Source: Planctomycetota bacterium (lineage in GTDB: Bacteria; Planctomycetota; Brocadiia; CAIUPP01). Taken from it: a DNA stretch of 64,000 bases. Positions 17,807 to 56,600 of this stretch are shown here, piece by piece. Made by a program: the position numbers and the translations under genes. The first letter of the stretch is position 1; every line of letters begins with the position of its first letter. The stretch covers positions 1-64,000 of the forward strand of contig JAKJEM010000004.1 in assembly GCA_022705425.1 (NCBI GenBank). Direction: 5' to 3'. The notes under the pieces were generated by a model. That model saw only the letters and a program-made list of their open reading frames with translations. It made no database searches and was not told the DNA's origin.

Positions 17807-18601
17807 CTACTCCCGCTCGTAGGCCTTCATCGCCGCCAGTTCGCGCGGCAGGTGCGTCTCCCACGGCTCCCATTGAATCCATTCGCCGCTCAGGAAGCCC
17901 GCGTACCCGGCCCCCTTCAGGCATTGGACCGCCTGGCGGTGGTCAATCTCCCCGGCGCCGATGGGCTTCATGTGCAGCCGCCCGTCGGCGGTGATACCGT
18001 CGTGGAAATGGACGTGCTTGATCCACGTCTTCAGCGTGTCAAAGGAGTCCTGGATCGTCTTCTTCGCCACGCGAACGGGGTGCATGATGTCCCAGTTCAC
18101 CCCGACGTTGGGGAGGCCGACCCGCTTGACCACTTCCGCCACGTCGTCCGGGTCGCACCAGTCGTCGTGCGTTTCCAGGCAGAGGACCACGCCCGTCTCG
18201 CGGCCTTCGCGCGCCGCGGTGCGCAGCGCGTCCACCAGCGAGTCCTGCGCCTGGCGGCGTCCGATGCCCACGGGAATCTTCCCGCCGAAAACGCGAAGGC
18301 ACGGCGCACCCACGTCGGCGGCCAGGGTCATCTTGCGAACCGTCTCGGCCACCTGCTGCCGCGCCGTTTCGGGGTTGGCATAGCTGTGCGAGGTTGCCAG
18401 GCAGGAAAGGAAGATGCCGCTGTCGGCCACCTTCTTCCGAATGTCGCGCCGCTGCGCACGCGTCAGGTCCGCTTCGATGCCGTGCGCGTGCTTGGCATCC
18501 AGCCGCGGCTCGACGGCGTCGTAACCGAACCGCTTCGCCGTCGCCAGGACTTGGTCCAGCGTCAGTTCCGGACAGGAGAACGTCATGAAGGAGTACTTCA
18601 T
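17807..18601 (-). CDS. Sugar phosphate isomerase/epimerase (AP endonuclease 2 fold)
   Basis: 264 residues, compact TIM barrel. Recognisable blocks are FGYDAVEPRLDAKHAHGIEADL, APCLRVFGGKIP, VVLCLETHDDWCDP, GVNWDIMHPVRV, IKHVHFHDG and GFLSGEWIQWEPW. The Glu of LETH, Asp of NWDIMHP, His of VHFHD and Glu of SGEW form the expected divalent-metal site of xylose-isomerase-like epimerases. Substrate not readable. It starts at ATG 18601 and is followed 36 bases later by the zinc-ribbon gene on the same strand. A second member of this family lies at 5780-6745 but shares only the fold-level motifs. Confidence 0.9.
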   Translation of the reverse strand: MKYSFMTFSCPELTLDQVLATAKRFGYDAVEPRLDAKHAHGIEADLTRAQRRDIRKKVADSGIFLSCLATSHSYANPETARQQVAETVRKMTLAADVGAPCLRVFGGKIPVGIGRRQAQDSLVDALRTAAREGRETGVVLCLETHDDWCDPDDVAEVVKRVGLPNVGVNWDIMHPVRVAKKTIQDSFDTLKTWIKHVHFHDGITADGRLHMKPIGAGEIDHRQAVQCLKGAGYAGFLSGEWIQWEPWETHLPRELAAMKAYERE

Positions 18602-18717: not shown

Positions 18718-18848
18718 ATCCGTCAATCTTCGGGGGGTGTGGCACAGCCGCCCTCGGCTGTGGGAACGTCCTGCTGCAACAACCACGGGCGAGGGCGCCC
18801 ATGCCACACAGGGCACACTCGGTGTGTCCCCCTGAAGACGGACCGGAT
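18718..18848. mobile_element. MITE-like palindromic element, copy 1
   Basis: A 131-base non-coding element with imperfect terminal inverted repeats (ATCCGTCAATCTTCGGGG at the left against the reverse complement of CCCCCTGAAGACGGACCGGAT at the right). Near the left end is a perfect stem CACAGCCG-CCCT-CGGCTGTG (18743-18762), followed by GCGAGGGCGCCC and GCCACACA. Copy 2 at 45973-46129 shares these landmarks in the same order. No ORF. It fills much of the 457-base gap 18602-19058. Confidence 0.75.
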
Positions 18849-18965: not shown

Positions 18966-18994
18966 TTGACAGCAGCCCCGGCAGAGGCTATCAT
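18966..18994 (+). promoter_or_regulatory. Near-consensus promoter of the GntR gene
   Basis: TTGACA (18966-18971), 17-base spacer, TATCAT (18989-18994). This is the best -35 box in the window. The predicted start is near 19001, directly in front of the operator. Confidence 0.75.
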
Positions 18995-19004
18995 CTTCAT
19001 GGCG

Positions 19005-19021
19005 TATCAGACTGTCTGATA
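19005..19021 (+). promoter_or_regulatory. Operator: perfect 17-bp palindrome
   Basis: TATCAGACTGTCTGATA has two perfect eight-base arms around a central T. It begins four bases after the predicted transcription start and ends 37 bases before the GntR start codon, the right place for autorepression by the regulator it precedes. Confidence 0.7.
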
Positions 19022-19058
19022 TACCTGCCCTCTCCACGCTGTGCGAAGGGACGCGGAA

Positions 19059-20180
19059 ATGAGCGGAACCGCGGCGCCATTCAAGACCCATGGGAAACCT
19101 GAAGGGGCGGGCGTACCCTACAGCCGGATCAGCCAGAACCTCCGTCGCCAGATCGAGGCGGGCGACCTCAAACCCGGCGAACGTCTGCCGACGATCCGCG
19201 AGATGGCCCGCGCCTGCGGCGTCAGTCCCTTTACCGTGGGCCGCGCGCTGAGTGAACTCGCTCGCGACGGCCTTGTGATCGCGCGCACCGGCTCCGGCAC
19301 CTATGTCGCCGAGACGCAGGAGGCCACGGTCGAAGTGGTGATCTCCTACCCGGCGAGCGCATGGCCCGAAGCGCCGGCGGAAACGCTGTACTTCGGCCAG
19401 ATTCTCCGGGGGATCGAGACGGCCGCCTCGCCGGCGCCGCGCTGCTTCACCTCCTTCATGGACGAGGAACACGCGCGGGCCGAAGAAATCCTGGCCGTCT
19501 GCCGCGCGCGGCGGGCAAAACGCCTGCTCGTGTACCGTCCGCGCGGGCGCATGGCGCGCGAACTGGCCGCCGTCGTCGAGCACATCCCCACCGTGACGCT
19601 CATCGCGCCCCTGCCGGGAACGCCTTCCGGCTGCGCCACGATAGACCCCTACGACGCCTTCCGGCGGCTGCTCCTGGAACGCATCGCCGCCGGTCGCCGC
19701 GAGTTCTACTATGCCGCCGTCGTCACCGACATCGCCGATGAATTCTCCCCCTATGCGCGCATGTATCAGTGCTTCCTCCGGGTGATGGCCGAGGCGGGCA
19801 TCCGGCCGATGATCTTCCCGGTGAACCGCTTCGCCGCGGAAGGGGTGCAGCAGTTGTCCGCCATGGCGCCCGAAGTGCCCGACGGCGTCGTCTTCATCGC
19901 GTCCTATCCCGGCCTCTTCGACGCGGTGAAGATGAACCGGCCCCAGGTGGACCTGATCTCCTACACCGAACGCGGCGAGACTCTCGACCGGCTGAAGGGC
20001 CGGGTGACGCTCCTGCACGGCGGCATGGACCGGTGCGCCGCCGCCGCGATGGAGTTGTTCCGCCGCCCCTTCAATGCCGAGGGCGCGCCGCGGCCCGTTG
20101 TCGCCCGCGTTGCGCCCGACGTCTTCCCCGCCGGGACCTGCCCGGCCGCATCCCCTGTGTCGAAAGGAGAAGGACGATGA
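19059..20180 (+). CDS. GntR-type transcriptional regulator with sugar-sensor domain
   Basis: ATG at 19059 follows GAAGGG by eight bases; GTG at 19041 is an in-frame alternative. 373 residues. Residues about 21-84 are a GntR winged helix: [62 protein letters not shown]. The rest (about 100-365) looks like a periplasmic-binding-protein fold as in LacI or AraR-type sensors ([33 protein letters not shown]), though repeats are weak. It probably binds the palindrome just upstream and responds to a sugar. Its stop overlaps the pseudopilin start (ATGA). Confidence 0.88.
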
Positions 20181-21382
20181 AACGGCTCATCCACGGCCTG
20201 CGTCGCGGCGCGTTCACCCTGATTGAACTGCTGGTCGTCATCGCGATCATTGCGATTCTGGCCGCCATGCTCCTGCCCGCCCTGGCCAGCGCGCGGGAGA
20301 AGAGCCGACGAAGCAGTTGTATGAACAACCTCAAGCAGACGGGGCTGGGGTTGGAGAGTTATTCGAGCGACTACAATGAATACCTGCCGTGCTGGGTGGG
20401 CTGGCACAATGAGACGGCCGCCGGGTACAAGCCCAACGGCGTGGACGGGCTGTATTCGCGGCCGACCGGCGGCACGACGCAGACGATCAAAGCGACAGGG
20501 CGGGTCTTTACGGACACCGGACGCGGAGCCCAGGCCCTCGAGCTGTGGTGGTGCGACAAGATCGGACAGGGCAGCAAAGGACCCACGGATTCCTGGGCCA
20601 AAGGACAACTGAATCTCACCCCGATCGGCCTGGGGTTCCTGCTCGACGGCAGTTACATTCAGGACGGGCGGTCGTACTACTGCCCCAGCATGAATGAAAC
20701 GTGTTCGGATGCCGACTACAAGGCCGCCTGTCAGCGGCAGAATGCGGCGGTGACTCCCGCCACGGCCCGAGGGATGCGCTCTGCCAGCGCCATGCAGCGG
20801 CGGGGCGGTTTCGATGCGGAATCGTTCTTCACAGGCGCGGCCTCCACTCTGGCGTACACCTATGGGGGTGCGGCGGCGTCTCTGTTCGCGGTGGCCTCGG
20901 CCTATGCGTACCGCAACAATCCCTGGGACGCGAACCACAACTCGCCCTTCACCTTCACCTCGGGTCCCACCGGCGCGCTGCCGGTCAAGAACTGGGACTC
21001 CGGGTTCTCCAACGCGTCCAACCCGAAAGGGCGCGACGTTCTTTGCGACGGCCCGATGTTCCCGACGCGCAAGCAGCTCGGTACCCGGTGCATCGTCTCC
21101 GACACCTTCTTTCGCGGCTTCAGCTACACGTCCTGGCCCAGGACCATGCCGGCCATTGGCGGATGGGTCCACGGCGACGGCTACAATGTGCTGTATGGCG
21201 ACGGGCACACCCGCTGGTACGGCGACCCCGAGCAGAAGATTGCGTACATGACGGACAAGCAGACCGCCACGTGGCAAGGTTCCATCGGAAGCCACATGTC
21301 CGCCAGCGTGTGGAACACCATTCCTTCCGCCGCATACGTCTATGCCCTGTTCGACAATGCCGAAGGGATTGACTTGCCGTAA
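20177..21382 (+). CDS. Type II pseudopilin-like protein with prepilin N-terminus
   Basis: 401 residues; ATG at 20177 overlaps the GntR stop and follows AAGGAGAAGGAC. The N-terminus [21 protein letters not shown] carries the prepilin cleavage site and E+5, then the 20-residue hydrophobic helix [24 protein letters not shown]. Ala, not Gly, would be at -1 if Phe is +1. [25 protein letters not shown] is typical of the large pseudopilin families of Lentisphaerota and Planctomycetota, and [17 protein letters not shown] near the C-terminus stands for their H-X9-DG motif. Usually many copies exist per genome. Coupling to a GntR sensor suggests substrate-induced expression. Confidence 0.92.
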
Positions 21383-21490: not shown

Positions 21491-21521
21491 AAGAGGATCC
21501 GGATCCCGCCCGGATCCTCTT
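21491..21521 (+). terminator. Strong 12-bp hairpin after the pseudopilin gene
   Basis: AAGAGGATCCGG (21491-21502) and CCGGATCCTCTT (21510-21521) are perfect inverted arms with a seven-base loop, followed by CTTCCC. A smaller hairpin GGTCTC-ccgta-GAGACC lies just before at 21460-21476. The T-run is poor, so it may act as an attenuator or processing site between the regulator/pilin genes and the downstream enzymes. Confidence 0.6.
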
Positions 21522-21595: not shown

Positions 21596-23692
21596 ATGGC
21601 GAACAAACGCCAGCGCACCGAGCCGTGGGTTTCCCTGTGCCTGTTCCTTGGTCTGGCCGCACATGGCGCCGTTCCCGACCGAATTGAGCCGGCCACGGAG
21701 CGCGCGGTCACCGCCGAGTTCCTCGTCTCCCCCGTCGTTTCCGCGCGTTCATGGGGCTCGGCGCTGACGCCCAATGCCCGCGGCGGCTTCAGCCTGATCA
21801 CCTCCTTCTGGGAGTTCGGCACGCGGAAGCCGACGGAGCACGTCATCGTGGACATCGAAACCGGCGAATGCCGGGTCACCGAGGACAAGCCCGACCACTT
21901 TATCAACACCTTCAACTACACCGTGCAGACCCGAGCGAAGAATGGACGCATCTTCTTCCCGCAGGGGCGGCAGAACAACGACCTCTCCTACTACGACCCC
22001 GCCACCGAGACGATCCGGTCGCTCGGAAGCCTGCTCGACGGCAGCAAGGGCGACCGCGATTTCTACCAGCGTGTGATCGGCCCGGACGACATGCTCTACT
22101 GCGCCACGCATTCCTATCAGAACCCCGCCGTGGTGCGGATCAACCCCGACACGCTGGAGGTCAAGGTCCTCGGCAAGGTGGGGGTGAAGGACCGGCCCAT
22201 CTACTGCTATCCCTATCACATGACGGTTGACCCGCCGTGGGTCTATGTGGCCATCGGCAAGAAGCCCTTCGAACTGGCCGCCATCAACGCGGAGACGGGC
22301 GAATCGCGAATCCTGATGACGCGCGACGACCCGGATAACTGGCTGAGCGTCGGCGAAGGCTGGGCGGGCGTTCGCGCCGTGTACACCGTCCATCGCGGCC
22401 AGAAGGACAAGGAGAAGCACGAGTTCTACTGGTGCGCCGACGGCGCGATCTACCCCTGTTCCAGCCCCTGGAAGGACGACAAGAAGCCCCTGCCCTTCGT
22501 TCCACGCCAGGTCAAGGCCCCGGCCTACCCGGTCACGGGCGCGCCGGAGCTGAACCTCAACGACCTGAACCCCGACTCCGCGGGCGTCTGCCGCATCTAC
22601 TGGCGGCCCCAGGGCACCAAGGACCCCTGGAAGGAAACCCGCTTCAAGATCAAGCACCTCTCCCCGGTGGAGATCGAGTCGCTGATCGCCCTGCCGGACG
22701 GAACGCTCTTCGGCAACGGGCGGCAGTATCACGGCTTCTTCCGCTACGACCCGAAGACGGGCGCGAACCAGGTCTTCGGTCGGTACGGCGTCAGCCGAGG
22801 ACCGCGCCTCGTGCATGACGGGCTCGTTTACATCAGCGGCTACCCGACCAGCAACCTCTCCGTTTACGACCCCGGCCGGCCGTGGACGGCGAACCGCCGT
22901 CCGGACGGCATCCAGGCCGCCGATGACGCGCCGCCGCCCCCCGCCGAGATCAACCCCCGCCTCCTGGGGAACTTCTACGCCTACACGGCCACCGAATACT
23001 CCGTCTTCCTGGCCCCCGGCAGGAACGGGCGCATCTACTTCCTGGGCCGGCGCGAGCGCACCGGCGTCGGCAGCGGAATCGGCTACTACGACCTCGCCGC
23101 CAAGGCCTTCGGCGGGCACCACGAGAACCTGAACTTCCTGGAGCCGCGCGGCCTGGTCGTGGCGGACGAACTCGGGCGCGTGGTCCTCTCCGGCGCGTTG
23201 CGCCAGGACCCCTCCTCCGCCGTGCCGCCCCCGGACGAAGCCCAACTGGTCCTCTACGACATGGACCTGAAAGAGGTCGAGCGCCTGACCGTCAAGCCGG
23301 GAATCAAACACACCGGCCGGATCTTCCTGACGTCGGACGCCGGCAAATCCAACGTGATCGTCGGAGTGATCCCGCCGGAAAGAGCGATCTACCGGTACGA
23401 TCTGGCACAGAAGAAGTTGCTGGACTGGGTCGAAATCAACGGCGGGATTGACAACATCGCCTGCCGGGAGACGGACGGCGCCATCTGGATCGCGACCACC
23501 GACCCCGCCACCCGAGCGCGTCACCTCGGCTGCCTGGACCCGGCAACGCTGAAGTGGACAACCTTCGGCAAACTCCCCGCCGCCATCAACCATCTGGCCT
23601 GGTCCGGCGACGACCTCTACGTGACCATGACCGCCGAGTCTGGCGGCGAGACCAAATCCGGCCTGTGGCGGTTGACGCCGCCCGACAAATGA
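21596..23692 (+). CDS. Secreted beta-propeller-like protein of unknown function
   Basis: ATG at 21596 follows AGGAGGAGAA; an open frame upstream crosses the terminator and is not used. 698 residues with an N-terminal signal peptide (WVSLCLFLGLAAHGA). The rest is made of repeated short beta strands with GxxYxxDPxT-type turns (LSYYDPATETIRSLGSL, AVVRINPDTLEVKVLG, HGFFRYDPKTGANQVFG, GIGYYDLAAKAFGG, RYDLAQKKLLDWV), the look of a seven- or eight-bladed propeller related to SMP-30/PQQ-type repeats. No catalytic motif is clear. It is followed 13 bases later by the giant heparinase-like gene, so a role in binding or cutting a polysaccharide is inferred from context. Confidence 0.85.
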   Translation: MANKRQRTEPWVSLCLFLGLAAHGAVPDRIEPATERAVTAEFLVSPVVSARSWGSALTPNARGGFSLITSFWEFGTRKPTEHVIVDIETGECRVTEDKPDHFINTFNYTVQTRAKNGRIFFPQGRQNNDLSYYDPATETIRSLGSLLDGSKGDRDFYQRVIGPDDMLYCATHSYQNPAVVRINPDTLEVKVLGKVGVKDRPIYCYPYHMTVDPPWVYVAIGKKPFELAAINAETGESRILMTRDDPDNWLSVGEGWAGVRAVYTVHRGQKDKEKHEFYWCADGAIYPCSSPWKDDKKPLPFVPRQVKAPAYPVTGAPELNLNDLNPDSAGVCRIYWRPQGTKDPWKETRFKIKHLSPVEIESLIALPDGTLFGNGRQYHGFFRYDPKTGANQVFGRYGVSRGPRLVHDGLVYISGYPTSNLSVYDPGRPWTANRRPDGIQAADDAPPPPAEINPRLLGNFYAYTATEYSVFLAPGRNGRIYFLGRRERTGVGSGIGYYDLAAKAFGGHHENLNFLEPRGLVVADELGRVVLSGALRQDPSSAVPPPDEAQLVLYDMDLKEVERLTVKPGIKHTGRIFLTSDAGKSNVIVGVIPPERAIYRYDLAQKKLLDWVEINGGIDNIACRETDGAIWIATTDPATRARHLGCLDPATLKWTTFGKLPAAINHLAWSGDDLYVTMTAESGGETKSGLWRLTPPDK

Positions 23693-23705: not shown

Positions 23706-26700
23706 ATGAACAACCATCGCAATGCCCTGTCGCTCTCTGTCACCGCTTCCCTCCTCCTCCTTGCCGGCGCCGTGACCGCCGCCGAGACGGTTCCCCTGAA
23801 ACCGGCCGATCCGAAGACACTGCGGGCCGCCCCGCATCCGTCAACGCTGACGGTATTTCCGAGCACTCCCGTGCCCGGCCATCCCGGCGCGGATCCCGAC
23901 GCCGAGAAGAAACGTCCGCCTCATGGCAAGCCGGAGTACCTGAACTACCCGGGCTCTATCGAACACTACCGGACGACCGACCAGAAGTATATCTACGCGC
24001 TCAACCCGTTCAACGAGCGCACGCGGGTGAGGAACTTCATCGCCGTCGAGATGCCGACCGTCGCTCCGACGATGAAGGAGACCTTCGCCGAGCCGGTCGA
24101 GTATGTCGTGCCGCTGTTCGACAAGCGATGGTACGTGATGACCGGCGAGGCGCGTCCGCCCGCGCCCGTTGTCCGCCTCAAGCCCGGCGGTCCGCGGTTC
24201 GCCTTCGACCTCAGAGGACTTGAGAACGGCTTGCACTGCGTGCGGCTCATCGCCGCCATCGAGCCGAAGAACCAGCGCAACGGCTATCCCCTCGACCTGA
24301 TCGTGGACATGAAGATAAACGATGGACCGAAGGGGGAGGTGAACCACTACGTCCTGCGCCAGCGCGGCGCGCAGAACTTCTACTCCATGGGCGAGTTCTG
24401 GTTCCACGTCGAGGACGACCGTACGTTCCACATGGACATCGGGCTTCATCCCGACTCGAAGATTGACCTCCTCGTCCACAACCTTGACGTGCACTACATG
24501 TTCGCCGAGTTGGCGCGCCGCGGGGCGAAGACCCGGAGCGTTCTGGTGACGCCCGAAGCGCTGAAGGCGAACTGGGCGACGCCCGAAGCCGAGAAGATGC
24601 GCGCCCAGTACCAGGCCGCGGTGGGCAAGACGATCGCCGCGCTGCGCAAGGAGTTCCCCGACAAGACCGACGAGGAACTTCGCGCCATCCGCCGCGAGCG
24701 CAAGGACCAGGCGCTGTGGGACTTCATGCCGCCGATCAACAGCCATTACTACCAGGCGATGGGCCCGCTCATTCACTCGCGACCCGATCCGCAAACGGAG
24801 CAGGAACTCAAGGAGAAGGGGCTGCTGCCGGACGACAATTCCGTCGCCCGCGGCTGGGTCGGCCGCAAGTGGAATCCGAAGGCCGCGTGGCGTCCGGACG
24901 TGATCATCCCCGAGCGCGCCTACGAAAACGAATGGGGCCAGGTGGACTGGCAGTTGCCCTGGCGACTGGTTTACGACGCGCCCGACGGCACAAGGGAGTA
25001 CTACACCCTCGACGACCTGCGGGCGAACAAGCCCCTGCCCCGCCTGCCCTTCCCGGTCCCCCCCTGGGGCACGCGCCACGAGGTGGAAGGAGAGGAGAAC
25101 GCCCGTTTCTTCACTCCCATCGCGCAGGCGAATGGCCAGGCCGTGCATCGCGCGCTGTCCTGGCTGCAGCGCGATTCCGCCCCCGTGCGGAAGTACTACG
25201 TGCAGGGCGGCATCGAAGACTGCGCTCGTGACGCCGCCATGCTCCTGTGCCGCGTGGCTTACGACCTGCCCTCCTACACCTCCATGCACGCCATGAACAT
25301 CATCCTTCAAGGTCCCATGGACACGGTCCACAGGTGCGACTACCTCCACCGCCACCGCGCGACTCGCTCCTACCAGATGATCGAGTGGGACGAGCTGGCC
25401 AAGACCTACGACTACATCTTCCCTTACCTGAAGGACAATCAGGAGTTCGCCACAGCCCTCGGTCGCCACATCCCGTGGGTCAAGACCCCTCAGGATGTGA
25501 TCGCCTACCTTGACACGTACGTCCTCCAGTATGGCGCGCGGGAGACGATGTACTACAACCACTACCTCGGACAGCGGCAGCCGGAGTTCCTGGCCGCCTT
25601 TGCCGCCCTGCAAGGCGACGCGGAGATTTCGCGACCGTGGATGGAGACGCTCTTCTCGCACGTCTGGATCTACTCGCAACCCTTCGCCGGCATCCAGGAC
25701 CTGGTCTATCAGACCACCCAGCGCGACGGAACCTATTCGATCGGCTCCTACTCCTACACCCTGGGCGGGCCCAGCTCCATTCACGTCGCCCGATGGATTG
25801 AGCACTATCTGGCGCAAGGCGGGGAACAACGCTTCAATATCCTTGATCCGAAGCGGTTCCCGCGCATGACCGAGTTCCCGTACTTCGTGATCGAAGCCGC
25901 CGTGGCGGGCGGGCACGCCCTGCACATCGGGGATGTCGGCGGCCTGACCCAGGGCTACGGGTCCGGTCGTCACGAAACGCATCCCCTTCTCCGCGACGGC
26001 TGGCGATGGACGAAAGACCCCCAGTTCGCCTGGTGTCTGGCGAACCACAGCGCACGCCTCACCGAAACGGACGAAGAGTGGCAGGGCATTCAAGAAGCGG
26101 CGAAGCGGACGCCCCGTAACCCCTTCACCGCCCAACGGTCGCGTGTGCTGAGCGACTGGGCCGGGATTCTCGAAGGCAACCCCGACGCGCAGGATTTCCG
26201 ATACCGCAGCGCCGCGCGCCTCCGCGTCGGCTGGGGCTGGGGCCACTCCCATCGCGACTCGCTCGACCTCAACCTGTGGGCCATGGGAATGCCTGTCTCC
26301 GGCGACCACGGCAATCGCCCCGGATACGGCTTCCCCGACGTCGTCAAGTCCATGCTCCACAATGTGGTTACCATTGACCATCGTGACTTTGACGGGAACT
26401 GCTGGGTCGCCGACCTGAGCGACATGGCGGGCTGCCGCTACCTCCGAGGACGGGCGACCTATGATGCCACCGCCGGCACGCCGGGAACCTTTGAGCGGCA
26501 GGTCGCCCTCATCGAACTGGATCCGGGCGTCCTGCCCGACGCTCCGTTGAACCCGAAGCGACCCCTCCCGCCCGGCGCGCGCCTGCCGCGCACCTACGTC
26601 GTGGATTTCTTCCGTGTGGCCGGCGGCAAGGTCCATACCTACAACTTCCACGCCGCGCCGGAGGACGAATTCGTCATCAACCTGCCGCGCGAGGACCTGA

Positions 26701-28040
26701 CAGCCGACGAGAAGGAGTTGATGAAGGGCTACAAGATCGCGGGCGAGCAGTGGGCGGCCACGGTTCAGGCCGACCTGACGGCCACCTGGCGCCTGTCGCG
26801 CGAGGCGCGGGAATTCGAGATCGCCGGACGAGGACCGCGTAAGACGGTCGCTGCCGAGCAGGCCATGCTCGGAGCGGCGTTCGACCCCCAGTCCCCGCGA
26901 AAGTATCTGCGCGTCCACCTGCCCGGACAGCCGGGAACGCGGCTTCTGACGGGCCTCTGGACAGCCGCTTCGTACCAGGCCGACTCCCGGCAAGGCGACA
27001 TGGCCCGGCAGGCGCACCTCGTCCGCCCCGCCGCCGAACGCATAGCGCAGTCCACCTTTGCAGCGGTCTGGGAGCCCTTCGCGGGCGAGTCCTTTGTCGA
27101 GTCCGTCCGGATCGAGGGAGACACCGGCCGCTCCGATGGGCCCGTCGCCCTGCACATCCGGCTGAAAGACGGCGTGCAGGACCTGTGCTTCACCGACAGC
27201 GCCCCCGCGCTGCGCACGCTCGCCGACGGCACTCGCGTGCAGGGGCGGTTCGCCTACCTGTCGCGCGACGACCAGGGCATTCGGCGGGCGAGCCTCGCCG
27301 GCGGCGCCTTGTTGCAGACAGCCACTCTGACGGTGAAGCCTCTTCGTGAGGAGTGGAAGATCCAGGTTGCCGAGGCCGACTACCTCGAAAAGCGGCTGAC
27401 CTTCAAGGGCCGCCTCCCCGAGCGCGTCCTCGACGGCGCATTCTTCGAGGTCGGCCTTCCCGACGCTCCCGGGTTTCGACGGGCGAACTGGACCAGCTTC
27501 CAGGCCCGGCGCGTGCAGTGCGACGGCGAGAAAGGGAGCCTGACGTGGCGCAAGGACGCGGGGGTGTACACCGGGGCCATTGACGCGGTCCAGCGGACAC
27601 CCGGAAACGCGGTCCAGGCCACGCTGGACATGGCGATTCGCCCCAATCTCAAGGAAGGCCAGTCACAGCAACTCGTCGTGCCCAGCCCGCGCACGAACCG
27701 GTCATGGCGCGGCAACGTCGCCGGCGACAAGATTCATCTGTTCGGCGACGACGTAACGGAGAAGGATTTTGCCGCAGGCGACCGGATCATGGTGTACCAG
27801 TTCGGACCGGGGAGCTTCTGGCGGGCGCCCACGCAGGTCTCGCTGTGCCGGAATGCCGATGCCGGCTACGCGATCGAGGCCAACACCGGATTTGAGCTCT
27901 CGCTGAGAGCCCAAGCCGCCGCGTGGTCGCGCGACGGGCAGACGTGGACGACGCTCACGCCCGCCGCCGGGGCTGTGCGCTGGACGGTGCAGGACAGCGA
28001 CCTGGGCGACGGGCGCTTCCTGCTGAAGCTGGACCCCTGA
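23706..28040 (+). CDS. Giant secreted heparinase II/III-like protein
   Basis: 1444 residues, about twice the length of known heparinase II. A signal peptide (ALSLSVTASLLLLAGAVTA-AE) is followed by a beta-rich domain (about 60-270), an alpha-rich region (about 420-850; many aromatic and His residues as in the alpha/alpha barrel of polysaccharide lyases) and the signature block GWGWGHSHRDSLDLNLWAMGMPVSGDHG near 845-875, then MLHNVVTIDHRDFDG. This matches the heparinase II/III fold, where the His and Tyr of these regions act on uronic acids. The last 450 residues are beta-rich. Exact substrate unknown. Operon partner of the propeller protein. Confidence 0.82.
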   Translation: MNNHRNALSLSVTASLLLLAGAVTAAETVPLKPADPKTLRAAPHPSTLTVFPSTPVPGHPGADPDAEKKRPPHGKPEYLNYPGSIEHYRTTDQKYIYALNPFNERTRVRNFIAVEMPTVAPTMKETFAEPVEYVVPLFDKRWYVMTGEARPPAPVVRLKPGGPRFAFDLRGLENGLHCVRLIAAIEPKNQRNGYPLDLIVDMKINDGPKGEVNHYVLRQRGAQNFYSMGEFWFHVEDDRTFHMDIGLHPDSKIDLLVHNLDVHYMFAELARRGAKTRSVLVTPEALKANWATPEAEKMRAQYQAAVGKTIAALRKEFPDKTDEELRAIRRERKDQALWDFMPPINSHYYQAMGPLIHSRPDPQTEQELKEKGLLPDDNSVARGWVGRKWNPKAAWRPDVIIPERAYENEWGQVDWQLPWRLVYDAPDGTREYYTLDDLRANKPLPRLPFPVPPWGTRHEVEGEENARFFTPIAQANGQAVHRALSWLQRDSAPVRKYYVQGGIEDCARDAAMLLCRVAYDLPSYTSMHAMNIILQGPMDTVHRCDYLHRHRATRSYQMIEWDELAKTYDYIFPYLKDNQEFATALGRHIPWVKTPQDVIAYLDTYVLQYGARETMYYNHYLGQRQPEFLAAFAALQGDAEISRPWMETLFSHVWIYSQPFAGIQDLVYQTTQRDGTYSIGSYSYTLGGPSSIHVARWIEHYLAQGGEQRFNILDPKRFPRMTEFPYFVIEAAVAGGHALHIGDVGGLTQGYGSGRHETHPLLRDGWRWTKDPQFAWCLANHSARLTETDEEWQGIQEAAKRTPRNPFTAQRSRVLSDWAGILEGNPDAQDFRYRSAARLRVGWGWGHSHRDSLDLNLWAMGMPVSGDHGNRPGYGFPDVVKSMLHNVVTIDHRDFDGNCWVADLSDMAGCRYLRGRATYDATAGTPGTFERQVALIELDPGVLPDAPLNPKRPLPPGARLPRTYVVDFFRVAGGKVHTYNFHAAPEDEFVINLPREDLTADEKELMKGYKIAGEQWAATVQADLTATWRLSREAREFEIAGRGPRKTVAAEQAMLGAAFDPQSPRKYLRVHLPGQPGTRLLTGLWTAASYQADSRQGDMARQAHLVRPAAERIAQSTFAAVWEPFAGESFVESVRIEGDTGRSDGPVALHIRLKDGVQDLCFTDSAPALRTLADGTRVQGRFAYLSRDDQGIRRASLAGGALLQTATLTVKPLREEWKIQVAEADYLEKRLTFKGRLPERVLDGAFFEVGLPDAPGFRRANWTSFQARRVQCDGEKGSLTWRKDAGVYTGAIDAVQRTPGNAVQATLDMAIRPNLKEGQSQQLVVPSPRTNRSWRGNVAGDKIHLFGDDVTEKDFAAGDRIMVYQFGPGSFWRAPTQVSLCRNADAGYAIEANTGFELSLRAQAAAWSRDGQTWTTLTPAAGAVRWTVQDSDLGDGRFLLKLDP

Positions 28041-45972: not shown

Positions 45973-46129
45973 AATCGGTCAGTCTCTCGGGGATGTGGCA
46001 CAGCCGCCCGCGGCTGTGGGCGCGGCTCCATCAGGTCGGCACAGGCGAGGGCGCCACAGGCGCTGCGCCGCGCCGCAACCGGTGTGCCACACACGGCCAG
46101 TTGCCGAGTCCCCCCAAGAGTGACCGATT
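45973..46129. mobile_element. MITE-like palindromic element, copy 2
   Basis: 157 bases bounded by AATCGGTCA and TGACCGATT, a perfect nine-base inverted pair within about 20-base imperfect ends. The stem CACAGCCGC-CC-GCGGCTGTG lies at 45999-46018, followed by GGCGAGGGCGCC and TGCCACACA as in copy 1 (18718-18848). No ORF. Confidence 0.75.
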
Positions 46130-47831: not shown

Positions 47832-50711
47832 ATGAAGACCCCGACCCGCGAGTGGCGCATCGAAGTCGCCGTCCGCCCCGAATACCCCGACCCGGACGGA
47901 CACGGCGCGCTGGACTCCATCGCCGACCTCCACATCGCCGGCATCAAGGACGTCCGGCTGGTGAACGTATATCTCATCACCGGCCCGCTGACGCCGCCGC
48001 AGATCGAGCGCGTGGCGTCGAAGCTGCTGGCCGACCCGGTGACGCAATACTACGCCGCGCGCGGACCCATCGCCCCGCCGCTCAAGGGCCGCCATGCCGT
48101 GGCGCAGGTCTTCCGCAAGCCGGGCGTGATGGACCCCGTTGAAGCCAGCGTTCGCAAGGGGATCGCGGACATGGGCCTGCGCGCCGACGCCGTGCGAACG
48201 GGGCGCAAGTTCCTGATCTACGGCGCGCCCACGAAGACGGAGCTGCGCCTCATCTGCGACGAAGCGCTCCACAACGCCGCGATCGAGGACGTCTTCATCG
48301 GCGATGTCGAAATCCCGCATTCGCCCGCCGCGCCGGAGTACAAGTTCCAGCGGCGCGAGGTGGCCCTCCTGGGCGTCAGCGACGCCCGCCTGATGCAGAT
48401 CAGCAAGGAGTGGACGCTGAGCCTGAACCTGGAGGAGATGCGCGCCGTCCAGCGCCATTTCGCCGAGCAGGAGCGCAACCCCACCGACGTCGAGCTGGAG
48501 TCCATCGCGCAGACCTGGTCCGAACACTGCGTTCACAAAACCCTCCGCGGCAAGATCGAGTTCGAGGGGCGGGTCATAGACAACCTCCTCAAGACGACCA
48601 TCTTTGCCGCAACGGCGGAGATGAAGAAGCCCTGGTGCGTCAGCGTCTTCCGCGATAATGCCGGCGTCATCCGCTTCGACGCCAGGCACAACGTCTGCTT
48701 CAAGGTCGAAACGCACAACCATCCCTCGGCCATCGAGCCCTACGGCGGGGCCGGGACGGGCATCGGCGGAGTCATCCGCGACCCCCTCGGCACCGGCCTG
48801 GGCGCCAAACCCATCCTCAACACCGACGTCTTCTGCTTCGGGCCGCCGGACCTGCCGCTCAACCGCGTGCCGCCCGGCGCCCTCCACCCCAAGCGCGTGA
48901 TGAAAGGCGTCGTGGCCGGCGTGCGCGACTACGGCAACCGCATGGGCATCCCCACCGCCAACGGCGCCGTGCTCTTCGACGAACGCTACGTCGGAAACCC
49001 GCTGGTGTACTGCGGGAACGTGGGCCTCATCCCGCGCGACAAATGCCGCAAGGGCGCCCGCAGCGGCGACCTCGTCCTGGTCGTCGGCGGACGCACCGGG
49101 CGCGACGGTATCCACGGCGCAACCTTCTCCTCCGTCGAGCTGACGGAGGAATCCGAGGTCGTCAGCTCCGGCGCGGTTCAGATCGGCAACGCCATCGAAG
49201 AGAAGCGCGTGACCGACACGATCCTCCAGGCCCGCGACAAGGGCCTGTACACCTGCATCACCGACTGCGGCGCCGGCGGCCTCTCGAGCGCCGTGGGGGA
49301 GATGGGCGCCGAACTCGGCGCGGAGGTGCATCTCGACCGCGTCCCCCTGAAGTACCAGGGGCTCTCATACGCCGAAATCTGGATCTCCGAAGCCCAGGAG
49401 CGCATGGTCCTGTCCGTGCCGCCGAAGAACCTCAAGGCCATCATGAAGATCTTCCGGGGAGAGAATGTCGAGGCCACCGTCATCGGACGCTTCATGCGCG
49501 ACCGGCGGCTGCGCCTCTTCTATCACGGGCATCCGGTGGCGGACCTGAGCATGGACTTCCTCCACGAAGGCGTGCCGCGCCTCGTGCGCCGCGCAACGTG
49601 GCAGAAGCAGAGCCACCTCGAACCGAAGGCCAAGGAGCGCGCGGAATACGGCGCGGTCCTTCAGGCCTTGCTCGGCGCCTGGAACATCTGCTCCAAGGAA
49701 TGGATCATCCGCCAGTACGACCACGAGGTGCAGGGGGCCAGCGTGCTGAAACCCCTGGTGGGCGCGGCGAATGACGGCCCCGGCGACGCGGCGGTCATCG
49801 CGCCCGTTTACGGCTCGCGGCGCGGCCTCGCCGTGGCCAACGGCATCAACCCGCGCTACGGCGACATTGACCCCTACGCCATGGCCGCCTCCGCCATTGA
49901 CGAGGCCGTGCGGCAGATCATCTCCGTGGGCGGCGCGCCTGATCGCATCGCCCTGCTGGACAACTTCTGCTGGGGGAACACCGACAAGCCCGACCGCCTC
50001 GGCTCGCTGGTGAAGGCCGCCCAGGCCTGCTACGACATCGCCAAAGCCTACGGCACACCCTTCATCAGCGGCAAGGACAGCCTGAACAACGAGTTCCGCG
50101 TGGGCGACCGGACGATCGCCATCCCGCCGACACTCCTCATCAGCGCCATCGGCATCGTCGAGGACGTGCGCCGCTGCGTCAGCATGGACGCCAAGCGCGC
50201 CGGGAACATCCTCTACATCGTGGGAACGACCTACGCCGAACTCGGCGGCTCGCACTACTACGCCCACCTGGGCTACCTCGGCAACGCCTGCCCGATCGTC
50301 CGCCCGACCGAGGCGCCGGCAACCTTCCGCGCCCTGGCCGCTGCCATCGCCCGCGGACTCGTCCGCGCCTGCCATGACTGCTCCGAAGGCGGCCTGGCCG
50401 TCGCCGCGGCCGAGATGGCCTTCGCCGGCGGGTTGGGAATGGACCTCTACACCATGACCGCCCCTCGCCCGGCAGAGGTGGACCGCGACGACACCATCCT
50501 CTTCAGCGAGTCGAACTCGCGCTTCCTGGTCGAGGTCGAGCCGGAACGAACCGACGCCTTCGAGGCCGCCCTGAAGGGCGTGGCATGCGCCCCGCTGGGC
50601 CGAATCACCGCCGAACCGGTCTTCCATGTCCGCGGCCTCAAGGGCCGGACGATCATTCGCGAGAACATCGCCGCCCTCAAAGAGGCGTGGCAGAAGACAC
50701 TGAGGTGGTAA
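47832..50711 (+). CDS. purL: Phosphoribosylformylglycinamidine synthase PurL with two N-terminal PurS domains
   Basis: 959 residues. Residues about 8-80 and 90-165 are two PurS-like modules (RIEVAVRPEYPDPDGHGALDS...LLADPVTQYY; AVAQVFRKPGVMDPVEASVRKGI...NAAIEDVFIGD). The PurL core starts near 190 with the catalytic SEHCVHKTLRGKIEF, the ATP-site VETHNHPSAIEPYGGAGTGIGGVIRD, TDCGAGGLSSAVGEMGAE and a second half with GDIDPYAMAASAIDEA and SGKDSLNNEF. It makes FGAM from FGAR in purine synthesis; the glutaminase PurQ must be encoded elsewhere, since no class I amidotransferase domain follows. Start has GGAAGG upstream. Confidence 0.95.
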   Translation: MKTPTREWRIEVAVRPEYPDPDGHGALDSIADLHIAGIKDVRLVNVYLITGPLTPPQIERVASKLLADPVTQYYAARGPIAPPLKGRHAVAQVFRKPGVMDPVEASVRKGIADMGLRADAVRTGRKFLIYGAPTKTELRLICDEALHNAAIEDVFIGDVEIPHSPAAPEYKFQRREVALLGVSDARLMQISKEWTLSLNLEEMRAVQRHFAEQERNPTDVELESIAQTWSEHCVHKTLRGKIEFEGRVIDNLLKTTIFAATAEMKKPWCVSVFRDNAGVIRFDARHNVCFKVETHNHPSAIEPYGGAGTGIGGVIRDPLGTGLGAKPILNTDVFCFGPPDLPLNRVPPGALHPKRVMKGVVAGVRDYGNRMGIPTANGAVLFDERYVGNPLVYCGNVGLIPRDKCRKGARSGDLVLVVGGRTGRDGIHGATFSSVELTEESEVVSSGAVQIGNAIEEKRVTDTILQARDKGLYTCITDCGAGGLSSAVGEMGAELGAEVHLDRVPLKYQGLSYAEIWISEAQERMVLSVPPKNLKAIMKIFRGENVEATVIGRFMRDRRLRLFYHGHPVADLSMDFLHEGVPRLVRRATWQKQSHLEPKAKERAEYGAVLQALLGAWNICSKEWIIRQYDHEVQGASVLKPLVGAANDGPGDAAVIAPVYGSRRGLAVANGINPRYGDIDPYAMAASAIDEAVRQIISVGGAPDRIALLDNFCWGNTDKPDRLGSLVKAAQACYDIAKAYGTPFISGKDSLNNEFRVGDRTIAIPPTLLISAIGIVEDVRRCVSMDAKRAGNILYIVGTTYAELGGSHYYAHLGYLGNACPIVRPTEAPATFRALAAAIARGLVRACHDCSEGGLAVAAAEMAFAGGLGMDLYTMTAPRPAEVDRDDTILFSESNSRFLVEVEPERTDAFEAALKGVACAPLGRITAEPVFHVRGLKGRTIIRENIAALKEAWQKTLRW

Positions 50712-50980
50712 GGACGCGCCCATGCCAAACTCGGACGACCGGACAACGGCGGCCACGTTTCACTTGCCTGCCGCCGTGGGCACCCGGAGGCCGCGAGCGT
50801 AACCGGGGTAGGCCCTGGCCTCGGGGCGGTCCTCGGGAGCCCGAGCACGCGTGCGGCGGGGCTGCATCCATCGCCCCCGGAGTTCCGGCTGCGAACCGCG
50901 CCGGAGACGCCTGACCGCGCACACCGTGACGTGCCGAAGATGTCCCCGTGGACCCACAGAGCAAGAAGGCGCCGGCGTCC
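50712..50980. other. Intergenic stretch without recognised feature
   Basis: 268 bases between purL and the RND operon. A 26-codon ORF at 50721 lacks any recognisable feature, and I see no good sigma-70 promoter, riboswitch-like fold or repeat. Confidence 0.5.
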
Positions 50981-52537
50981 ATGAAACCATTCCTTTCGAC
51001 GCTCCTCGCCGCGGCGGGACTGCTGGCGACCGCGTCCTGCATGGTCGGCCCCGACTACCGCGCGCCGGAGGCCGACGTGGCGGAAGCGTGGTCCGGCCCG
51101 GACGACGCCCCCGGACGCCGGAGCGGCGACCCCAGCCCCCGCTGGTGGAGCGAACTCGGCGACCCGACTCTCGACCAGCTAATTGACGCCGCCTGCCGGA
51201 GCAACCTCTCCCTCCAGGAGGCGGGCGTGCGCGTCCTCGAAGCGCGCGCGCGCCTGAACCGCTCGATCGGCGACCTCTTCCCCCAACAGCAGGGCATCGG
51301 CGGCCAGGTGGCCCATGCCCGCCAGAGCGGCGCTCTGACGCCGCCCGGCGTGGCGGCGGATTCCACCACGAGCCAGGCGCTCTTCTCCGCGTCATGGGAG
51401 ATTGACTTCTGGGGCCGGTACCGGCGCGCCATCGAAGCCGACCGGGCGGCCTTCCTGGGGTCGGTGGCCGCCTATGACGACGCGCGGGTGACGTTGATCG
51501 CCGATGTGGCCTCCAGCTACGTCCGTCTGCGCACGCTCGAAGAGCGCCTGCGCGTGGCGCGGCAGAATGTCGAGGCGCAACGCGAGAGCCTCCGCATCGT
51601 CTCCGTGCAGTTCAAGAGCGGCGCAACGGGGGAACGCGACGTGCGGCAGGCCACGACGCAACTCGCCCAGACGCAGGCGCAAATCCCGAAGTTCGAGGAG
51701 TCCCTCCGGCAGACGCGCCACGCCCTCGCCGTTCTCCTGGGCGAAACTCCCGACCGCATCGAAGCCCGGCTGACAAGCCCCGGACGCATCCCCCTCGCCC
51801 CGGAGGGCATCGCAACAGGCATTCCGCGCGACCTGCTGCGCCGCCGGCCCGACGTGCGCGCGGCAGAGCTGGCCGCCGCGTCCGCCTCGGCCCTGATCGG
51901 CGTGGCCCGCGCCGACCTCTACCCCGCCTTCTCCCTCTCCGGAACCTTCGGCTTCGCCTCCACCCGCGCGGGCGGCCACTCGCTGACCGACCTCGCCGAC
52001 TGGCCCAATCGCGCCTACGGCCTCACCGGCGGCTTCTTCATGCCGCTGTTCAACTACGGCCGCCTGACCAACCAGGTGCGCGTGCAGGACGCCCGCTTCC
52101 AGGCCGCCGCCCTGCGCTACCGAAATGCCGTCCTCAACGCCCAGCGCGAGGTGGAGGACGGACTGGCAACCTTCCAGTGCCGCCGCCAGGCCGCCGCCCT
52201 GCTGGCGCAGGCCGTCGAGGCCGCGCGCCGCTCGACGGCTCTGGCGACCTCGCAATACCAGGGCGGCCAGACGGACTACACGACCGTCATCCTCGCGGAG
52301 CAGACGCAGCTCGACGTCGAGGACGCCCTGGCCGAGGCGCAGGGCGGCGTGGCGCAGGGGATCATTGCCGTCTATCGCGCCCTCGGCGGCGGATGGCAGA
52401 CGCGCCAGGAACGCGACGTGGTCTCCGACGACATCAAGGCGGAAATGGCGCGCCGGACGAACTGGGGCCGCCTGCTCGAACCGTCGGAGCATCTCCCCGA
52501 GACCCCCGGCGCGGAGAACGGAGGAACGAACCCATGA
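50981..52537 (+). CDS. Outer membrane efflux lipoprotein (NodT/OprM family)
   Basis: ATG at 50981 gives 518 residues beginning with a lipoprotein signal (LLATASC at the lipobox) and the family start CMVGPDYRAPEADVAEAW. Two OEP repeats follow with helical hairpins (LRTLEERLRVARQNVEAQRESLRIVSVQFKSGATGERDVRQATTQLAQTQAQIPKFEESLRQTRHALAVLLG), a GIPRDLLRRRPDVRAAE block at the repeat junction and SQYQGGQTDYTTVILAEQTQL near the end. It forms the trimeric outer membrane channel of a tripartite pump. GTG at 50948 is an upstream alternative but would lack a signal start. Stop overlaps the adaptor start (ATGA). Confidence 0.93.
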   Translation: MKPFLSTLLAAAGLLATASCMVGPDYRAPEADVAEAWSGPDDAPGRRSGDPSPRWWSELGDPTLDQLIDAACRSNLSLQEAGVRVLEARARLNRSIGDLFPQQQGIGGQVAHARQSGALTPPGVAADSTTSQALFSASWEIDFWGRYRRAIEADRAAFLGSVAAYDDARVTLIADVASSYVRLRTLEERLRVARQNVEAQRESLRIVSVQFKSGATGERDVRQATTQLAQTQAQIPKFEESLRQTRHALAVLLGETPDRIEARLTSPGRIPLAPEGIATGIPRDLLRRRPDVRAAELAAASASALIGVARADLYPAFSLSGTFGFASTRAGGHSLTDLADWPNRAYGLTGGFFMPLFNYGRLTNQVRVQDARFQAAALRYRNAVLNAQREVEDGLATFQCRRQAAALLAQAVEAARRSTALATSQYQGGQTDYTTVILAEQTQLDVEDALAEAQGGVAQGIIAVYRALGGGWQTRQERDVVSDDIKAEMARRTNWGRLLEPSEHLPETPGAENGGTNP

Positions 52538-53649
52538 CGCGGAACGAACTGGCGGCGCTCGCGTGCGTCGCACTGCTCGCCACAGCGACCGGCGCGTGCG
52601 ACAAGGCGCGCAAGACCCCCGACGCCGCACCGCCCGCCGTCACCGTCCGCCGGCCCGACCGGGAGCCGGTGATCGAGTACGTCCAGGCCACCGGGACCGC
52701 CGCGGCCTCGCAAAGCGTGGACCTGGTGGCCCGCGTGACCGGCTACCTGCGCTCGATCCACTTCGAGGACGGCGTTCGCGTTCAGGCGGGGCAGTTGCTC
52801 ATGGTCATCGAGCCCGAGCCCTACGAGCAGCAGGTGCGCCTGAACGAAGCGGCCCTGCTCATGGCGCAGGCGGAGTACGACCGCCAGGTCGAGATGGCCA
52901 AACAGAACGCCACGGCGGCGGCGAACGTCGAGAAGTGGCGCTGCCAGCGCGACCAGGCGGCGGCCCAGGTCGAGCTGGCCAGGCTCAACCTCAGCTACAC
53001 CCGCATCACCGCCCCCTTCAGCGGGCGCATCGGGCGGCGACTGGCCGACCCGGGCAATCTGGTGGGCCCGGGAGCCGCCGTCAAGCTGGCAACACTCGAC
53101 CAGTTGACGCCGATCTACGTCTACTTCAGCCTCGGCGAGCGCGACGTGCTCCGCCTGCGCGACAGGCTGCGACAGGAGGGCATCACCCCCCAGGCGGCCG
53201 TAGGCAAGACTCCGGTCTTCGTCGGGTTGCAGGATGAGGAGGACTATCCGCACGAAGGCGTGATGGACTTCGTGGACAGCGCCATCAGCCCCGCCACCGG
53301 CACCCTCCTGATGCGCGCCAAGCTGAAGAACGAGGATGCGCGCCTCTTTCCGGGGGTCTTTGCACGCGTGCGAATTCCCCTCTCCGAGCCGCGCCCGATG
53401 CTCGTGACGCCGCAGAGCGCCATCGGCAACGACCAGCAGGGCGACTACGTTCTGGTCGCCGACGCGGACAACGTCGTCGTCCGCCGCAGCGTCGTCAAGG
53501 GGCCGCTGACTCCGCGCGGCTGCGCCATCCGCAGCGGCCTCAAGCCCGAAGACCGCGTCATCGTCAAGGGAATGCTCAAGGCCCGGCCCGGCGAAAAGGT
53601 CGCCCCCGCAGCGGACACCGAGCCCGCGCCGCCCCGTCCCAGCCGCTGA
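52534..53649 (+). CDS. RND efflux periplasmic adaptor (membrane fusion protein)
   Basis: 371 residues from ATG at 52534. A lipoprotein signal (LLATATGAC) anchors it. The barrel-sandwich/lipoyl halves are clear: VDLVARVTGYLRSIHFEDGVRVQAGQLLMVIEPEPYEQQV and LNLSYTRITAPFSGRIGRRLADPGNLVGPG, with a short alpha hairpin between. SLGERDVLRLRDRL, ISPATGTLLMRAKLKNEDARLFPGVFARVRIPL and a C-terminal membrane-proximal domain (KGLKPEDRVIVKGM) complete the AcrA-like order. It links the inner-membrane pump with the outer channel encoded on either side. Confidence 0.95.
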   Translation: MTRNELAALACVALLATATGACDKARKTPDAAPPAVTVRRPDREPVIEYVQATGTAAASQSVDLVARVTGYLRSIHFEDGVRVQAGQLLMVIEPEPYEQQVRLNEAALLMAQAEYDRQVEMAKQNATAAANVEKWRCQRDQAAAQVELARLNLSYTRITAPFSGRIGRRLADPGNLVGPGAAVKLATLDQLTPIYVYFSLGERDVLRLRDRLRQEGITPQAAVGKTPVFVGLQDEEDYPHEGVMDFVDSAISPATGTLLMRAKLKNEDARLFPGVFARVRIPLSEPRPMLVTPQSAIGNDQQGDYVLVADADNVVVRRSVVKGPLTPRGCAIRSGLKPEDRVIVKGMLKARPGEKVAPAADTEPAPPRPSR

Positions 53650-53673
53650 CGCCCTCTTCGCGAAAGGCCCGGC

Positions 53674-56600
53674 ATGATTGCCAAGTTCTTCATCGAGCGC
53701 CCCGTCCTGGCAAACGTGATCGCCCTCGTCATCGTCCTCGTGGGCGCGGTCGCCCTCTTCCACCTGCCCGTAACCCAGTACCCGCCCATCGTCCCCCCCA
53801 CCGTGCAGGTGACGGCCGTCTATCCCGGCGCCAGCGCCAGGACGCTGGTCGAAACCGTGGCGCTCCCCATCGAGCAGCAGGTCAACGGCGTCGAAAAGAT
53901 GCTCTACATGCAGTCCACCTGCTCCGCCGACGGCGCCTACAACCTGACGATCACCTTCGAGGTCGGCACGGACCTGAACTTCGCCCAGGTGCTCGTGCAG
54001 AACCGCGTGGCCGCCGCGATGTCGCAGTTGCCGCCGTCGGTGCAGCAGCAGGGCGTCGTGACGAAGAAGAAATCCACCGCCATCCTCCAGATCGTGACGC
54101 TCACCTCGACGAACCCGGCGCACGACGCCCTCTTCCTCAGCAATTTCGCCACCATCGAACTGCGCGACCGCCTGGCGCGGCTGCCCGGCGTCGGCGACGC
54201 GACGGTCTTCGGCATCGGCGAGTACGCCATGCGCGTCTGGCTCGACCCCGAACGCATGCGCCAGCGCGCCCTGACGCCGCGCGACATCATCGCCGCCATC
54301 CAGGCGCAGAACGCCAAGGTCGCCGCCGGCCAGCTCGGCATGCCGCCCGCCCCGCCCGGACAGGAGTTCCAACTCACGGTGAATGTCCAGGCCGCGCTGA
54401 CGGACGTCCGCGAGTTCGAGGAGATTATCGTCAAGGCCGCGCCCGACTCCGGCGGAAGGATCACCCGCCTGCGCGACGTCGGCCGCGTCGAACTCGGCGC
54501 CAAGACCGCCAGTCAGTTCTTCAAAGTGGACGGCCGGGCGGCCGGCGGCATCCTGATCTACCAACGGCCCGAAGCCAACGCCCTCGATACCGCGCGCGGC
54601 GTGCGCGAAGCCATGACGGCGCTCTCGAAGAACTTCCCCCAGGGCGTCCAGTACGCCATCCCCTTCGACGTCACCGCCTTCGTCCGCCAGTCCGTCAACG
54701 AGGTTTACAAGACCCTCTTCGAAGCCGGCTTCCTGGTGCTGCTGGTCATCATGGTCTTCCTGCAGGACTGGCGCGCCACGCTCGTGCCGGCCACGACCGT
54801 GCCCGTAACGATCATCGGCGCCTTCGCGGGCATGGCCCTGATGGGCTTCACCGTGAACCTCCTCACCCTCTTCGCCGTGGTGCTGGCCATCGGCATCGTT
54901 GTGGACGACGCCATCGTGGTGGTCGAGGGCGCGGCCAAGCACATCGAACGCGGCCGGACGCCGCGCCAGGCCGCCATAGACGCCATGCGCGAGCTCTTCG
55001 GCCCCATCATCGGCATCACGCTGGTGCTGATGTCCGTCTTCCTCCCGCCGGCCTTCATGCCGGGCATCACCGGCCAGATGTACCGCCAGTTCGCCCTGGT
55101 CATCGCCGTCACCGCCGTCATCAGCGCCCTCAACGCGCTCACACTCAAGCCCACGCAGTGCGCCCTGTGGCTGCGCCCCCCGGATACCTCGCGCCGCAAG
55201 AACCTCTTCTTCCGCGCCTTCAACGCGCTCTATGAACCCTCCGAGCGCCTCTACGCCCGCCTCATCCGCCGCATGGTCGAAAGCAGCGCCCGAATGGTCG
55301 CCGTGGCGCTGGTCCTGGTCGGACTCGCCGGTTGGGGACTCGCGCGCGTGCCCACGGGCTTCATCCCCACCGAGGACCAGGGCTACGTCATGGTCGCCGT
55401 CCAACTCCCCGACGCCGCCTCCCTGCAACGCACCGAGCGCGTGATGGACGAGGTGACGCGCCTCGGTCGCCAGGTGCCCGGCGTCGAGCGCGCCATCGCC
55501 ATCGGCGGCATGTCCCCACTCGACAACAACGCCTCCCTCGCCAACGGCGGGATCGTTTACTTCATGCTCAAGGACTGGGACGAGCGCGGAAAGGGCCAGG
55601 ACTTGCGCTCCATCTACCGGGCGATGGCCGAGCGCATGGCCGCGATCCCGGAGGCGCGACTCCTCACACTCGTGCCCCCGCCGATCCAGGGGCTCGGCCT
55701 CGCCGGCGGCTTCCAGATGCAGCTCGAACTGACCGACGGCAGCTACGATTACCCGCGCCTGCAGGAGACCGCCGACGCGCTGGTCGCCGCCGCCGCAACC
55801 GACCCGGCGATCCGCATGGTCTCCACCCCCATCCGCGCCCGCGCCCCGCAGCTCTCCGTCGTCGTGGACCGCGCCCAGGCCGAAACGTTGAACGTCGCCG
55901 TCGGCGACATCTACAACACGATCCAGTCCTACCTCGGCTCCACCTACGTCAACCTCTTCACGCGCTTCGGCCACAACTTCATGGTCTTCATCCAGGCCGA
56001 CGCCCCGCACCGCCTGAAGCCGGAGGACATCGGCGCGCTCTACGTCCGCAGCCAGAGCGGCGGCATGGTGCCCCTCGACGCCCTGGCCGAGGTCCGCTCC
56101 GACCACGGGCCCGCCGTCATCTCCCTCTACAACCTCTTCCCCACCGCCACGGTGAACGGCGTCACGGCCCCGGGCTTCAGCTCCGGCCAGGGACTTGACG
56201 TCATGGAGGCCGTCGCCGAACGAACGCTCGGGCGCGGCGTGCAATATGAATGGACGGCCATGTCCTTCCAGGAAAAACTCGTCGGCGGCTCCGCCGGGTT
56301 CGTCTTTGCCCTGGCCATCCTGCTGGTGTATTTCGTGCTGGCGGGGCAGTATGAAAGCTGGATCACGCCCGTGGCGGTGATCCTGGCCGTGCCGCTGGCG
56401 CTGCTGGGCACCGTGGCCGCGCTGCTGGCGCTCGGGGCGGACAACAACATCTACGTGCAGATCGGCCTCGTGCTGCTCATCGCCCTCTCGGCCAAGAACG
56501 CCATCCTGATCGTCGAGATGGCGCGCGAGGCCCGCGCCGCGGGCAAGGAGATCGTCGAGGCGGCCGTCGAAGCGGCCCAGGCGCGCTTCCGCCCCATCCT

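Follow-up and report, generated by a model that had tools for sequence, protein, structure and literature searches.

The perfect 17-bp palindrome TATCAGACTGTCTGATA, located in the analysed stretch of 64 kb (the window), probably serves as operator for the neighbouring GntR/LacI-type regulator, which would repress its own gene and a coupled pseudopilin gene until it is released by a ligand. Judged from the sequence, a private autorepression operator appears to be the most likely role of the palindrome because parallel cassettes occur in the genome, inverted repeats are enriched immediately downstream of the -10 boxes and related regulators show a tendency towards shared dyads.

The palindrome (19005-19021, strand-neutral, centre at about +12) follows a plus-strand promoter whose -35 element TTGACA (18966-18971) and -10 element TATCAT (18989-18994) are separated by a spacer of 17 nt. 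Matching the consensus in 11 of 12 positions, this promoter (18966-18994) is the top sigma-70-like site in the whole window. Since transcription is likely to start near 19001, as predicted from the promoter, the palindrome begins about 4 nt past the start. Promoter and palindrome had been described in this arrangement by the first-pass annotation, and both were recovered at these positions. For the minus-strand gene at 17807-18601 a divergent promoter was also considered, and was rejected as only a 9/12 site distant from the palindrome was found. Furthermore, an intergenic inverted repeat, CACAGCCG..CGGCTGTG, recurs at positions 18737-18763 and 45999-46018 of the window and upstream of the C250 cassette (L014), and perhaps represents a dispersed repeat family.

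The window contains six perfect palindromes with arms of at least 8 nt and at most one central base (centre of 0-1 nt), including TATCAGACTGTCTGATA, so that a palindrome of that size is not rare per se. It may thus be a chance sequence next to a regulator whose binding site lies elsewhere or which does not act on its own gene; this would also agree with the lack of a second site in the genome and with the missing GntR core. However, the G+C content of the window is 68% and the other five palindromes are G+C-rich, TATCAGACTGTCTGATA being the sole exception and lying at the window's top-scoring promoter. According to dinucleotide shuffles it is also unusual in its own promoter-proximal stretch of 53 nt (p = 0.0047), and the same stretch is enriched for repeats in the parallel cassettes. 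Taking this into account, a coincidental palindrome seems rather improbable, even though it is the strongest of the alternatives.

The search for TATCAGACTGTCTGATA in the 4.35-Mb genome (92% complete) revealed no second copy with up to three mismatches, and again none when the centre was varied from 0 to 4 nt. With the palindrome being single-copy, nothing points to a regulon. Further copies across the genome had been envisaged by the first-pass annotation, which had named their lack, jointly with a lack of binding in vitro, as speaking against its proposal; the wider regulon is accordingly not supported, and one half of that combination was found. The single copy argues against a regulon, not against local autoregulation. 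Taken by itself, the site would be an ordinary operator of a GntR autorepressor. The centre of TATCAGACTGTCTGATA reads AC-T-GT and thus does not correspond to the GntR-type core NyGTNxACNy (GT-Nx-AC), which is common, yet not universal, in operators of the GntR family (PMC4494728); this deviation had not been noted by the first-pass annotation.

The regulator gene (19059-20180, plus strand) is predicted to encode a protein of 373 aa, with the ATG at 19059 as the preferred start and a GTG at 19041 as a possible one. Based on Pfam, profiles and a structure model the protein combines a winged helix with a divergent LacI/PBP1-type sensor. The N-terminal winged helix matches PF00392 with 67.5 bits (cut-off 27, E = 8e-19), in agreement with the GntR assignment of the first-pass annotation. 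The C-terminal part has no Pfam match of its own; a profile made from it and from its three nearest paralogues matches LacI and CcpA, and a Foldseek search with the predicted structure (mean pLDDT 79) led to LacI-family repressor structures with E ~1e-12. Peripla_BP_3 was matched by 24 of 31 related regulators. The combination of a GntR winged helix with a LacI-type sensor corresponds to an AraR-like architecture, and from the fold of the sensor a sugar may reasonably be inferred as the inducer.

The arginine position that contacts G in the recognition helix of FadR and AraR is occupied by proline in the regulator (VSPFTVG), which would fit a different operator core. Over the regulator set no association of the recognition-helix arginine with the GT..AC core was detected, and the substitution is therefore not counted as evidence. 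A search of 75 genomes from the class (E<1e-25) revealed no relatives of the regulator subfamily outside its own genome, nor were any found in named genomes, which leaves no orthologues for a footprinting comparison of the operator. Among the other GntR regulators, L047, L058 and L138 are about 440-490 aa long and are followed by a pilin gene. In two of the 31 regulators scanned an ABC-type solute-binding domain (SBP_bac_8/SBP_bac_1) replaces the LacI-type sensor; these are probably L047 and L058.

The stop codon of the regulator gene overlaps with the start codon of the pseudopilin gene (ATGA, 20177-20180). The encoded pseudopilin-like protein (20177-21382, plus strand, 401 aa) comprises a prepilin cleavage/methylation motif at its N-terminus (PF07963, 29 bits) and the start of DUF1559 (PF07596, 38.8 bits), both matches exceeding the cut-off. 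Pfam gives no function for the DUF1559 family, and a link of its members with GntR/LacI regulators was not found in the open-access literature searched. A stem-loop of 13 pairs followed by the poor T-tract CTTCCCTC (21491-21521, plus strand) lies 3' of the pilin gene and may act as a weak terminator or attenuator.

Two plus-strand genes behind this hairpin are possible read-through targets. The first (21596-23692) encodes a protein of 698 aa with an apparent signal peptide and propeller-like repeats, for which the Pfam and PDB sequence searches gave no match. The second (23706-28040) encodes a putative secreted lyase of 1444 aa which likewise lacks matches in the Pfam and PDB sequence searches; its resemblance to heparinase II/III consists of a motif only (HSHRDSLDL, recognised by eye). 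Roughly 20 long paralogues of the latter protein were detected in its own genome and none in a relative of the same family, so that, going by sequence comparison, large putative lyases lacking a Pfam family appear to have expanded specifically in this lineage.

Apart from the promoter at 18966 no plus-strand sigma-70-like promoter was found ahead of the run of genes ending at 28040, so that read-through seems possible despite the hairpin. The pilin gene of two sister cassettes (C88 and C258) is immediately followed by a paralogous lyase gene, with a hairpin similar to 21491-21521 between the two in C88, which makes a control of lyase genes by such operators plausible. The possible control of the lyase genes suggested by the first-pass annotation is thus only partly supported, with the lack of another such promoter and the two sister cassettes in its favour and the 13-bp hairpin after the pilin gene against it. 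Genes of carbohydrate-active enzymes are found nearby (GH28, sulfatase, rhamnogalacturonan-lyase-like). Elsewhere in the window (47832-56832) a gene for a PurL-type FGAM synthase precedes an RND efflux set consisting of an outer membrane protein and of HlyD-type and AcrB-type proteins.

The regulator-pilin arrangement is repeated across the genome and in the relative of the same family. In the own genome 28 GntR domains exceed the Pfam cut-off, and DUF1559 matches number 57 there and 63 in the relative. A pilin gene lies directly downstream of 17 of the 28 GntR genes (plus one divergent) and, in the relative, of 14 of 41 (plus eight divergent); nearly all of these 17 are preceded by a near-consensus promoter. 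GntR matches were few in four genomes of the class that are more distantly related. A promoter score of 10.5 or higher was reached ahead of 20/28 GntR genes in the own genome and 29/41 in the relative, compared with 0.3% of random 250-nt windows, and in 223 kb of loci around GntR genes only 24 sites score at least 10, most of which precede GntR genes. Inverted repeats are enriched from the -10 element to about +40 (combined p = 5.6e-4 in the own genome and 0.049 in the relative) and not in the control stretches upstream of the -35 element (p = 0.99 and 0.95, respectively). Individually significant inverted repeats were identified at 6 of 26 promoters in the own genome and at 6 of 35 in the relative.

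LacI paralogues possess CG-centred LacI-type sites at the same place of the promoter, e.g. GCAAACGTTTGC and GCTAACGTTAGC. Only 3 of 1830 promoter pairs agree exactly in a 5-bp dyad and in its spacing. Regulator identity reaches 45% or more in 25 pairs, and two of the three belong to these; the hypergeometric test of dyad sharing against regulator identity, calculated by hand on pairs that are not independent, gave p ~5e-4. One of the latter two pairs, L051 and L136, spans two genera (TATCC-N3-GGATA), and regulators related to these two were found only in their own family among 392 genomes of the phylum. Taken together, the enrichment of promoters and repeats, the LacI-type sites and the dyads shared by related regulators indicate that the dyads at the GntR-cassette promoters are mostly cognate operators, with individual cases uncertain. 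Two promoters of related regulators in the relative (L143 and L160 in G001) carry direct repeats and not palindromes, namely two copies of CACAAGGTAAC at a distance of about 21 nt and repeats of GTGACAC. The short YtrA-like GntR genes L060 and L065 seem to have the operator-like promoter dyad GTNCTAT..ATAGNAC in common.

The tendency of sister-promoter dyads to follow the linked regulator also bears on the assumption that the cassette is controlled via the palindrome by some other regulator encoded elsewhere. Such a regulator would be compatible with a motif that lacks the usual GntR core, but it would usually have further sites, of which none with up to three mismatches exists, and we therefore regard its involvement as quite unlikely. 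Slightly less likely still is a function as an mRNA hairpin that affects stability or translation from the 5' end, since the transcribed palindrome does form a stem of 8 bp where the 5' end is presumed to lie but the stability of the leader does not exceed that of shuffles (z = -1.2), and several repeats of the sister cassettes overlap the -10 box and would thus be transcribed only in part.

The autorepression via the palindrome and the coupling to the pseudopilin, as predicted by the first-pass annotation, are well supported by the anatomy of the locus and by the parallel cassettes throughout the genome, and we consider its main line to be right with moderate to high confidence. In the proposed autorepression a dimer of the regulator at about +4 to +20 would block the strong sigma-70-type promoter, so that little of the regulator and of the translationally coupled pseudopilin is made. 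Once the LacI-type domain binds a small ligand, which is probably a sugar or an oligosaccharide derived from a polysaccharide, the repressor would be released and a burst of pseudopilin would follow, and read-through past the weak hairpin may provide some of the propeller-like and lyase-like proteins. As most of the approximately 17 cassettes of one plan have a different site of their own as presumed operator, each sensor would mainly control its own pilin.

An array of sensor-pilin cassettes with private operators was not found in the open-access literature searched. It is conceivable, albeit doubtful, that the genome operates a one-sensor, one-pilin system. Each of about 17 GntR-type and several LacI-type sugar sensors would then act through a private operator on one dedicated pseudopilin, in some cases also on a lyase, so that the make-up of a surface or secretion pilus is adapted to whichever polysaccharide is available. 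Both the own genome and the relative harbour dozens of DUF1559 pseudopilins without a known function, and their tight coupling to individual sugar-type sensors suggests a role as substrate-specific components in the uptake or secretion of polysaccharides. The set of promoter-proximal operators offers a testable route to the assignment of a ligand to each cassette.

Among known systems the regulator resembles the AraR subfamily (Bacillus subtilis AraR) in the combination of a GntR winged helix with a LacI/PBP1-type sensor, in the logic of a sugar-responsive repressor and in palindromic operators. AraR boxes keep the GT..AC core and serve several ara operons (PMC4218819). In contrast, the palindrome of the cassette lacks the GT..AC core and occurs once in the genome, and the linked gene encodes a pseudopilin. 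With the lac-type negative autoregulation of the LacI/GalR family the cassette has a sensor domain in common that profile and fold identify as LacI-like, whereas the DNA-binding domain of the regulator belongs to GntR and not to LacI. The placement of the palindrome, with a centre near +11/+12, recalls that of lac O1. The protein encoded behind the regulator shares the prepilin N-terminus and the start of DUF1559 with the prepilin-like proteins of this family (PF07596). The presence of a local regulator with carbohydrate-active enzymes nearby is reminiscent of polysaccharide utilisation loci, from which the cassette differs in that the immediate partner gene of the regulator encodes a pseudopilin.
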